Below are positions 1-42,679 of a stretch of 47,378 nucleotides of DNA, piece after piece. The notes beneath the pieces are model-generated. The model did no database searches. It was given only the letters and a program-made list of their open reading frames with translations, and was not told the origin of the DNA. The stretch's first letter is position 1. Each line of letters opens with the position of its first letter. The stretch is taken from contig QHSL01000096.1 of assembly GCA_003220435.1 (NCBI GenBank), forward strand, positions 1 to 47,378, in the 5' to 3' direction. Made by a program: the position numbers and the translations under genes. Source of the DNA: Candidatus Rokuibacteriota bacterium. Lineage in GTDB: Bacteria; Methylomirabilota; Methylomirabilia; Rokubacteriales; CSP1-6.

Positions 1-901
1 AGAACATGAAGGGCGGCCTCGCGAGCATCATCATGACCGCCGAAGCCATTCGCCGCTCCGGCGTGCGGCTCGCCGGCGATCTCGTCGTCGCCTGCGTCGC
101 GGGTGAGACGCAGGGCGGCGAGGGCACGCACTACCTGATGGAGCGCGGGCTCCGGACCGATGCCGCGGTTGTCGCCGAACCCTTCGGCGCCGACCACCTC
201 GTCACCGTGCACTCCGGCATCGTGCACATGGCGATTCACGTGTACGGCGTGCACATCGGCCGCCTCGAAGGCACCGTAAACGCCGTCCACAAAATGACGG
301 CGGTCGTCGAGGCGCTGCGGCACGTGCAGTTCCGCCACACCCCTCGCCCCGACTTGCCAGCCTTTCCACGGCTCAACGTCGGCGGGATCCTCGGCGGGCG
401 CGGCCGCGACTACGTGCTGGTGGAGCCGCCGTACGTGCCGGACGTGTGCACGATCATCGCCGACGTCCATTTCGTCCCGGGCCAGACCGTCGACGGGATC
501 GTCGCCGACATCCGGCGCACGCTGGATCCGCTCGCCGCGCGGGATCCAGAGCTCCGCTACGAGATCGAGATCCCGCCGCCCGCTCGCCTCAAGGGCCGTC
601 GGCGACTCGTGATGGACCCGTTCGACATGCCGGTCGACGCGCCGATCGTTCAGGCGGTGGCGCGAAGCTATCGCGCGGTGACCGGAGGGGAGCCCAAGGC
701 CATCGGCGCCGTGCTCCCGCACTCGTACAGCGCCGACGACACCTGCCATCTCTGGAAGGCCGGCATCCCGTGCCTGCTGTACGGGCCGATGCGTGCGTGC
801 TGGTGAGCGAGATGGAGACGGTCACCCGGGTGCTGGCGGTGACCGCGCTCGACGTCTGCCGTCGAAAACCGGCCGAGCTGGCCCTGGCATCACGACTATG
901 A
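1..901 (+). pseudogene. M20 family metallopeptidase (ArgE/DapE type), 5' partial, frameshifted C-terminus
   Basis: The open frame from the left edge carries the M20 signature NMKGGLAS at its start (positions 3-26), followed by a lid domain and the late motif PHSYSADDTCHLW near 718-756. These are metal-dependent hydrolases that cleave peptide or N-acyl bonds. The frame ends early at 804-806 as LLYGPMRACW. The frame one base over continues from about 790 with DACVLVSEMETVTRVLAVTA and stops at 899-901, and it looks like the normal end of the family. A small segment between YGP and DAC therefore seems to be missing and the frame is shifted. The start of the gene lies outside the window. The family call is firm. 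Whether the break is real or an assembly error cannot be decided here. Confidence 0.75.
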
Positions 902-918
902 TGGTTGAAGGAGGACCC

Positions 919-1266
919 ATGGTCACCCTCGAGTTCCACGACCCATCCGGCGTCATCGCGGTGAAGCAGCCCCACGCGCCCCGCATCGCGAGCCTCGCGG
1001 GCAAGCGCGTCGGCTTCGTCAGCAACGAGCAGTGGCAGGCTTATCGCATGCTGCCGCTTCTCAAGAAGCTGCTCGAGGCCGACTTCCCCGGCATCGAGGT
1101 GCTACCGATCGACGCCTTCCCCCAGGGCAACGGAGTGATCGGCTCGGAGGAGACGGCGGCGCTCGTGAAGCAAAGCGGGGTCCAGGCGGTCATCGTCGGC
1201 AACGCGGCCTGAGGGTCCTGCGCCACTGCATGCGGCCGGGCGGCCGCTAGGCTCGCTCTCGGATGA
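919..1266 (+). CDS. Putative UGSC-family selenoprotein with in-frame UGA (Sec98)
   Basis: The ATG at 919 follows a strong ribosome site (AAGGAGG, 908-914). The frame runs 97 codons to a TGA at 1210 and ends in AVIVGNAA. If that TGA is read as selenocysteine, the next residues are GSCATACGRAAARLALG, stopping at TGA 1264-1266 (115 aa, Sec at residue 98). The result is the motif UGSC with a further Cys at 105. A family named UGSC (seleno)protein is known in which this position is U or C after a segment like LAGKRVGFVSN. A hairpin of bacterial SECIS type lies 19-34 nt past the TGA. The 3' end overlaps the convergent gene by 20 bp. Homologues probably continue further, so the C-terminus may be truncated. 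Function is unknown; a redox role is inferred from the motif. The alternative is a 97-residue protein ending at 1212. Confidence 0.7.
1210..1247 (+). promoter_or_regulatory. Putative bacterial SECIS element after the UGA codon
   Basis: After the in-frame TGA (1210-1212) comes a perfect 6-bp stem: GCGGCC (1232-1237), tetraloop GGGC (1238-1241), GGCCGC (1242-1247). The loop starts 25 nt after the UGA and its first bases are G. This fits the usual description of bacterial SECIS elements: a loop 16-37 nt downstream with G in the first two positions. In a GC-rich genome such a stem can arise by chance, so it counts mainly together with the UGSC coding context. Confidence 0.5.
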
Positions 1267-1468
1267 ACGCGCGGATGTCGTCGGCGATGTCGAGCAGCTT
1301 GGCCCACTGCTCCTTGTAGAGGGTGACCGGAAAGCGACCCAGGCCATACACCGAGACTCCCCCCTTTTCGCTGACCTTCATCGAGACGCCGCGCGTCGTC
1401 CTGGCCTTCAGCGAAGCGTTCTCGGCCTTGAGCCGCTCGACCTCCGCCCGGAGCTCGTCGTCGGCCAT
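1247..1468 (-). CDS. Small hypothetical protein with N-terminal coiled coil
   Basis: This 73-residue protein starts at ATG 1468. Residues 4-22 form a heptad-like coiled coil (DELRAEVERLKAENASLKAR). They are followed by a compact segment with KVSEKGGVSVYGLGRFPVTLY and an amphipathic C-terminal helix (KLLDIADDIRAFIRERA). It has no signal peptide or membrane segment, so it is probably cytoplasmic. It begins 5 nt past the stop of the amidohydrolase gene upstream in the same operon. Its end overlaps the recoded end of the UGSC gene by 20 bp. No function is recognised; the coding call rests on composition, operon spacing and protein-like sequence. Confidence 0.6.
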   Translation of the reverse strand: MADDELRAEVERLKAENASLKARTTRGVSMKVSEKGGVSVYGLGRFPVTLYKEQWAKLLDIADDIRAFIRERA

Positions 1469-1473
1469 CGTGG

Positions 1474-2277
1474 CTATCCCGGGAGATTCCAGCCGATCCA
1501 GTTGCAGACGGCGCGCCCCATGATCAGCTCCTTGTCCTTTGCCGAGAGCCAGGACAGCTCCTCGGTGAACATGGTGACGCACTGCCGCCACGAGCACGGC
1601 ATCCGCGTGATGTCGGTCCCCCAGAACATCCGTTCCGGACCGAACGCGTCGTAGAGCTTCCGGATGTGTCCGTGGATGTCGCGATACGGATAGGACTCGC
1701 TCGAATAGCTCGGCGCGCCCGTCGCCTTCAGCGCCACATTGCGATGCTTCGCCGCCGCGACGAGCGCCGGCAGGTTCGACCACGCGGCGTCGGGCCGCCC
1801 GAAGTGGTCGATGATCAGCTTGAGCCCGGGATGGCGCTCCGCGATCCGGCCGATGGTCTCCAGCAGCCCGGGCCCGAGCAGCGCGACCGCCAGCCCCGCG
1901 CGCTCGGCCGCCGGCCACAGCCAGTCGATCGTCCCGTCGGTCAGCCACGTCTTCTGGTGCGGTTGGAGCAACGCGAAGCGGAGCCCGCGCATCCCCGGCT
2001 GGCTCTTGACGGAGTCGACCAGCGAGCGGCTCTCCGGCTTGTCGAGCGGGAAGTTGCCCAGGATCGCCAGGCGGTTCGGGTGCTGGCGCGCCGCCTCGAC
2101 CGCCAGCGCGTTGGAATTGGGATCCCACCCGGGCGGATGAATCAGCGCCGCGTTGACGCCGCCTTCGTCCATCTCCTTCAGCACGTCGGCCGCGGTGAAG
2201 TCGGCGACCTGACGGTGGTTGGGATTCGTCGGCTTGTTGTTCTTCCAGATGTGGATCTGCGCATCGACGACCAGCAT
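1474..2277 (-). CDS. Amidohydrolase 2 family protein (TIM-barrel metal hydrolase)
   Basis: The 267-residue protein starts at ATG 2277 behind GGAAGGAG. It begins with MLVVDAQIHIW, the metal-binding DxH strand of amidohydrolase 2 (uracil decarboxylase-like) enzymes, here as DAQIH. Other family marks are LIIDHFGRP in the middle, for the second metal or substrate site, and FGPERMFWGTDITRMPC near the end, with the conserved Asp. Such enzymes hydrolyse or decarboxylate small cyclic or aromatic acids; the substrate is not predictable. It is the first gene of a two-gene minus-strand unit with the 73-residue protein. It has no signal peptide, so it is probably cytoplasmic. Confidence 0.85.
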   Translation of the reverse strand: MLVVDAQIHIWKNNKPTNPNHRQVADFTAADVLKEMDEGGVNAALIHPPGWDPNSNALAVEAARQHPNRLAILGNFPLDKPESRSLVDSVKSQPGMRGLRFALLQPHQKTWLTDGTIDWLWPAAERAGLAVALLGPGLLETIGRIAERHPGLKLIIDHFGRPDAAWSNLPALVAAAKHRNVALKATGAPSYSSESYPYRDIHGHIRKLYDAFGPERMFWGTDITRMPCSWRQCVTMFTEELSWLSAKDKELIMGRAVCNWIGWNLPG

Positions 2278-41654: not shown

Positions 41655-41894
41655 TTTTCATCGCCGCGCCTCGGCCGGTGGGGCCCCAGCCCCGCGACGG
41701 CCTGCGGCGCGCACTTTTCATCGCCGCGCCTCGGCCGGTGGGGCCCCAGCCCCGCGACGGCCTGCGGCGCGCACTTTTCATCGCCGCCCCTCGGCCGGCG
41801 GGGCCCCAGCCCCGCGACGGCCTGCGGCGCGCACTTTTCATCGCCGCCCCTCGGCCGGCGGGGCCCCAGCCCCGCGACGGCCTGCGGCGCGCAC
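41655..41894. repeat. Tandem array of four 60-bp units carrying the REP-like hairpin
   Basis: Four head-to-tail 60-bp units each contain the hairpin repeat (copies at 41665-41713, 41725-41773, 41785-41833 and 41845-41893) joined by an identical short linker ACTTTTCATCG. Units 1-2 share GCCGCGCC and GGCCGGTGGGG, and units 3-4 share GCCGCCCC and GGCCGGCGGGG, which suggests stepwise duplication. Since 60 is a multiple of 3, frames stay open on both strands. On the minus strand this gives 20-residue repeats starting MKSARRRPSRGWGP. The array fills the gap between soxA and the exonuclease gene. Confidence 0.9.
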
Positions 41895-42679
41895 TACGGC
41901 CGGACGCCGGGCGTCTCCATGGTCATCCCGCGCGCGCGCCACATCAGGAACAGCTCGAGCTCCACGAGCTCGGGCGCGCCGTACTCGTACCCTTCCGCGC
42001 GGATCCCGACGAGACAGTTGCGCAGCCGCCGCTGGAGCGAGCCGAGGCTCTGCCATTCCAGCCGGTAGACCGGATAGCCGGTTGGATGCGCCTGCGGGAT
42101 CGCATTACCGGCGAGCCGCCGTCCCCAGTTGTCGTCGTGACACTGGCTGCAGGCCAGGTTGAGCTGCCCCTGCCGCCGGTAGAACGCGGCTCGCCCGTTC
42201 TCGAGGAACGGCTGCGTGCGGGCGTCGACGACGACGTCGATCGGCAGGCCACGCGACTGGCGCCCCACGTACGCCGTCAGCGCCAGGAGCTCGCGGCTCT
42301 CGTAGGCGAGCGGCGGTGCGCGCTGCCGGTCGACGCGGCACAGGTTGATGCGCTGCTCGAGATTCACGGGCCGCTTCAACGCGGCGTCGAACGCCGGATA
42401 GCGCGCGGCCACGCCTTTCATGCCGGCGCTCGCGTCGCCGTGGCAGTCGGCGCAGGCGCGTCCGGCCGCACCGGTCTTCCGAGCCCAGAGCGTGCCGCCC
42501 TCGAGCACCGCGAGCATCCCGGGATTGACGGTGTCGTCGTCCTGCATCGCGCGCGTCTCGCGGCTCATGAAGTCGTAACCCGAGCGGCGCTCGGCCCGCG
42601 GGATCTCGCCGGCGAACGTCGCCCCGGCGAGGACCATCACCGAGAGCGCGGCGAGGCGGCGGGGGGCTCTCCCGCTCAA
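41894..42679 (-). CDS. soxA: Sulfur-oxidation dihaem cytochrome SoxA
   Basis: The 261-residue protein starts at TTG 42679, overlapping the soxZ stop by TTGA. The signal peptide covers residues 1-25 (ending TFAGE). Two haem sites are present, CADCH and CSQCH. The Cys in LRNCLVGIRAEGYEYG fits the modified-Cys haem ligand of SoxA, followed by the usual ELVELELFL end. SoxA with SoxX forms the c-type cytochrome that links thiosulfate to the SoxY Cys in the periplasm. It is the last gene of the sulfur operon. No soxB follows; the hairpin array does. Confidence 0.9.
   Translation of the reverse strand: MSGRAPRRLAALSVMVLAGATFAGEIPRAERRSGYDFMSRETRAMQDDDTVNPGMLAVLEGGTLWARKTGAAGRACADCHGDASAGMKGVAARYPAFDAALKRPVNLEQRINLCRVDRQRAPPLAYESRELLALTAYVGRQSRGLPIDVVVDARTQPFLENGRAAFYRRQGQLNLACSQCHDDNWGRRLAGNAIPQAHPTGYPVYRLEWQSLGSLQRRLRNCLVGIRAEGYEYGAPELVELELFLMWRARGMTMETPGVRP

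Follow-up and report, generated by a model that had tools for sequence, protein, structure and literature searches.

The window, by which we mean the whole 47,378-nucleotide stretch of DNA analyzed here (the entire contig C142), very probably contains the first 112 codons of a gene of a known selenoprotein kind, broken at nt 1255 and fused there to the 3′ portion of a convergent gene. The UGA at 1210 sits at the conserved selenocysteine (Sec) codon of a known protein family. The window gene itself is neither a new family nor a new kind, being one more UGSC copy, and a broken one. The original prediction was right that the frame is of the UGSC family and carries a Sec codon, and the genome proves to use Sec; the breakage of the gene at codon 112 had been missed. 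The features of the region are given below in window coordinates.

3–903, plus strand: fragment of an M20 (ArgE/DapE-like) deacylase gene, identified by alignment with L101, L103, and contig C116 and by NCBIfam DapE-ArgE
919–1254, plus strand: UGSC-family selenoprotein gene, codons 1–112, the 5′ fifth of about 570 codons (PF24696, E = 4.3e-14)
1210–1212, plus strand: TGA predicted to be read as Sec, codon 98, with a TGA at the equivalent codon in 45/45 homologues and Sec machinery in the genome
1232–1247, plus strand: 6-bp hairpin with loop GGGC, a candidate SECIS, its inner stem kept in 46/46 sequences
1247–1468, minus strand: convergent small gene of 73 aa, whose C-terminal tail the join has cut as well
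1255–1263, plus strand: join, seen as three non-family codons (ALG) preceding a stop; UGSC matches end at 1255, and convergent-gene matches start at 1255–1262
1264–1266, plus strand: second in-frame TGA, a chance stop made by the join, where homologues read on
1474–2277, minus strand: amidohydrolase-like gene, an undisrupted open frame of 267 aa and the downstream neighbor

The Sec frame and its family

An ATG at position 919 opens a plus-strand frame of 97 codons that runs to the TGA at 1210–1212. Reading through this TGA yields U-GSC-ATAC-GRAAARL-ALG, after which a second TGA follows at 1264; the first stop and the read-through motif were both reproduced as originally described. Membership in the UGSC family was likewise confirmed, with residues 7–112 matching Pfam PF24696 at E = 4.3e-14 and 53.5 bits, above the gathering score of 25 bits. 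The piece covers only positions 3–107 of the 172 in this profile; a complete domain would extend to about profile position 170. Against NCBIfam NF041046 (UGSC_fam), the match was weak (26.7 bits) and below the equivalog cut-off of 125 bits. A complete relative from the same subfamily also fell under this cut-off (47.1 bits), indicating that the subfamily is divergent, besides the window copy being truncated.

When 84,980 species genomes were scanned, 45 close relatives of the window gene were recovered at 60–90% identity, six of them in Rokubacteria and most of the others in Betaproteobacteria MAGs; with one relative, L017, identity over residues 1–112 is 90%. Comparison of residue 98 across homologues, a check proposed with the original prediction, found a TGA at this codon in all 45; the residues after it are GSC in most of them, GAC in many, and GTC in a single case. 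When the codon-98 TGA alone is read as Sec, gene length is 564–576 codons in every one of the 42 homologues that are not cut by a contig end. These complete homologues consist of the UGSC domain fused in frame to a C-terminal part of about 380 residues, for which no Pfam family was matched. The originally proposed frame, 919–1266, would give about 115 aa, which is no complete protein; complete homologues are fusions of 564–576 aa, and the window copy is cut near nt 1255. A natural short UGSC variant was also considered and was rejected, since none of the 45 homologues ends near residue 115. Some MAG records carrying UGSC genes (L029, L030, L034, L038–L040, L046, L054, and L060) are labelled Bordetella parapertussis or Chitinophaga pinensis; their UGSC genes resemble those of Betaproteobacteria MAGs, and the labels look like automatic misnaming.

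A UGSC-containing selenoprotein was described in 2008, in a survey that held 255 Sec sequences and already reported fusion of UGSC to another domain (PMC2398784). The window gene was originally put forward as a probable new selenoprotein, a claim that does not stand, since the family has been known since that year and TGA 98 is a known Sec codon. With the described family (PF24696/NF041046; PMC2398784), the window copy has in common the motif, the position of Sec, and the sequence over residues 7–112. It differs in lacking everything past codon 112, and members of its own subfamily are fusion proteins about 570 aa long.

The assembly holding the window (5.44 Mb in 147 contigs) has soil Rokubacteria MAGs as its nearest named relatives. 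It encodes a tRNA-Sec, which scores above the Rfam cut-off and is called the same by ARAGORN, with SelA and SelB genes adjoining it, as well as a SelD gene that has its own in-frame TGA. A genome search for selA, selB, selD, and tRNA-Sec had been suggested; all four are present, including the selB and tRNA-Sec on which the Sec reading had been made to depend. From the conserved TGA together with this machinery, we infer that the in-frame UGA 98 is the site of Sec insertion in intact relatives, where SelB and tRNA-Sec would insert Sec. The SelD gene (L067; G000:C100:66727-67671) probably encodes a selenoprotein itself, given its in-frame TGA.

Seven UGSC loci occur in this genome, the window gene included. 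Among the six others, the profile match reaches position 170–171 in five and position 159 in one. A divergent UGSC locus of the same genome, L014 (G000:C144:29926-30402), reads U-S-T-C rather than U-G-S-C and shows no clear hairpin. At L110 (G000:C135:11139-11915), the genome encodes a protein related to the C-terminal partner domain, on a contig that holds no UGSC match.

The break at nucleotide 1255

The DNA of relatives matches the window UGSC gene as far as nt 1255 and not beyond. Their next match is the convergent small gene, starting at window position 1255–1262, which in the relatives is separated from where the UGSC match ends by about 1.4 to 6.3 kb. Homologues continue with E-A-x-G-I-P-T-V where the window has ALG and TGA 1264; the end at 1266 is a second stop and no natural gene end. 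Lost at the join are codon 113 and everything after it in the UGSC gene, together with the final residues of the convergent gene, whose tail reads RAFIRERA* in the window versus RAFIRDHDGELKAKEPR* in C116. The two sides of the join share a few bases only. The missing C-terminal part was sought in the other frames past 1255 and was not visible there, the convergent gene being found instead. The neighboring M20 gene is also damaged in the window, having lost 6 nt at one place and 31 nt at another, and the 31-nt loss shifts the frame at about 785–790; a Peptidase_M20 match was found in a relative.

A second contig of the same genome, C116 (5,437 bp), matches window positions 1–354 and 1257–1385 at 98–99% identity. 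Between these shared flanks, C116 has 662 bases versus 902 in the window, and its insert carries codons 373–568 of the UGSC gene, with 84% identity to the protein from G005. A search of the assembly for codons 114–372 returned distant paralogues only, at 30–45% identity. At the other end of the window contig, no overlap above 83% with another contig was found beyond short repeats. At window positions 41655–41895, four 60-bp units that share 98% of their sequence are arrayed in tandem; related pieces, 78–97% identical, occur on many other contigs, and the array looks like a dispersed repeat.

An AlphaFold model of L017, a complete homologue (mean pLDDT of 84, pTM of 0.85), places strands at 30–35 and 90–96 ahead of Sec 98, with a helix at 99–114 and strands at 119–124 and 146–149 after it. 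A protein ending at residue 115 would thus be without strands 119–124 and 146–149 and without the whole C-terminal domain. Judged by this model, the window product, which would stop just after the post-Sec helix, would not be a working enzyme. No relative among solved structures was found by sequence, and a fold search returned generic Rossmann-like matches only (best E = 4e-3). Over codons 1–112, dN/dS is 0.14–0.22 between the window and relatives and 0.16–0.32 between intact pairs, giving no sign of relaxed selection within these codons. As codons 1–112 look selected, any real break must be recent.

An artefact at a contig end is slightly favored over a recent real deletion as the origin of the break. 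We give about an even chance to assembly error or strain mixing, such that the organism would have an intact M20 gene, a UGSC fusion of about 570 codons, and the convergent gene, with C142 and C116 being wrong or partial paths. The broken piece lies within the first 1.3 kb of its contig; C116 and the window overlap at 98–99% identity yet hold complementary pieces of one gene; and the complete gene is present in six of the eight congeners, all of which argue for an artefact. However, only a few bases are common at the joins, fewer than in usual assembler overlaps, and damage is also seen in G003 and G008, in the latter case well inside a contig. To the rival explanation, a real and recent erosion, we attach a probability somewhat short of even. 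The population would then be losing the M20–UGSC gene pair through several deletion alleles, the window and C116 each representing one. Consistent with erosion, the adjoining M20 and UGSC genes are both damaged, UGSC was not found in the examined G003 stretch, G008 keeps only codons 471–570, and the joins show short microhomology of the kind expected from deletions. Erosion would nevertheless require the coincidence of two different deletions in one gene and one bin, both at contig ends, and codons 1–112 still look to be under selection.

A functional 115-residue selenoprotein with its own SECIS, as originally proposed, is highly improbable. The Sec codon, the motif, and the machinery on which that proposal drew are all real, but no homologue ends near residue 115, the same join cuts the convergent gene, and two strands of the central sheet of the UGSC domain would be absent. 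It is very unlikely that the window piece yields a working short selenoprotein. The case cautions that a genuine Sec codon may belong to a gene fragment; any predicted read-through should thus be compared with the length of its homologues and with its place on the contig. As a broken copy in a known selenoprotein family, the window copy itself matters little.

The candidate SECIS hairpin

The stem GCGGCC/GGCCGC begins 19 nt after the UGA, with 25 nt from the UGA to the loop. The SECIS-like hairpin of the original prediction thus exists, with its 6-bp stem and GGGC loop; taken alone, however, it is no better than chance. The 56-nt fold showed no greater stability than its shuffles (z = +0.58), and when the same peptide was recoded synonymously, about 78% of the versions formed a stem of at least 6 bp in the allowed range. 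Five inner stem pairs are kept in all 46 sequences and hardly vary, making covariation uninformative, and stem pairing holds in 80.7% of cells across these sequences versus 79.5% in shuffles. Wherever the 46 sequences retain the residue, codons TGC105, GGC106, and GCC109 show no synonymous change. A 7-bp stem is found at this location in five more distant paralogues of the genome, and two of its pairs carry compensatory changes; in four of the five, stems extend to 8–10 bp, a length reached by 1–6% of synonymous recodings. A SECIS in the UGSC family is plausible, while the window alone gives no proof, and the family supports the hairpin through conservation only.

Likeness to GrdB and PrdB

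Residues 70–123 gave weak NCBIfam matches of the PrdB and GrdB types (E of 0.05–0.2). In GrdB and PrdB proteins (PF07355, TIGR04483, and TIGR01918) of the glycine, sarcosine, betaine, and D-proline reductases, the segments GVDAVI...U-G-(S/T) and G(I/L)PTV align with UGSC. Rokubacterial PF07355 proteins continue past their TGA as U-G-(T/S)-(C/S)-x-R-C-G-A and then A/E-x-G-(I/L)-P, and profile comparison of this region with UGSC gave 95.6% probability and E = 1.3e-8, an E-value calculated for a single comparison, with 35% identity over 80 columns of the alignment. Unlike GrdB and PrdB, UGSC proteins are without the N-terminal part of GRDB (about 320 residues), have a different C-terminal domain, and give no above-cut-off match to these families; the N-terminal part of GRDB was sought through PF07355, which was reported for neither the window protein nor the complete relative. 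The profile comparison points to a Sec domain shared by UGSC and GrdB/PrdB proteins.

The intact protein would probably be a U-x-x-C redox enzyme with a Sec domain like that of the glycine and proline reductase B subunits. A broader proposal, which we hold tentatively and consider less than probable, is that the UGSC family is a sibling of the GrdB/PrdB Sec domain, so that the UGSC fusions of soil Rokubacteria and Betaproteobacteria may catalyze selenium-dependent reductions of small substrates, amino or carboxylic; their genes lie near those for amidohydrolases and an M20 deacylase. Such a link would give the UGSC family a testable biochemical lead. Sec-containing GrdB/PrdB members were found in the genome of the window and in its relatives. 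In Rokubacteria, L123 (G000:C17:17044-18078) and L116–L122, L124, and L125 are GrdB/PrdB-like, with a Pfam match that ends exactly at an in-frame TGA, and these proteins are likely selenoproteins. The TGA is followed by G-T/S-(C/S)-x-R-C-G, and the relative L125 reads U-GSC-HRCG.
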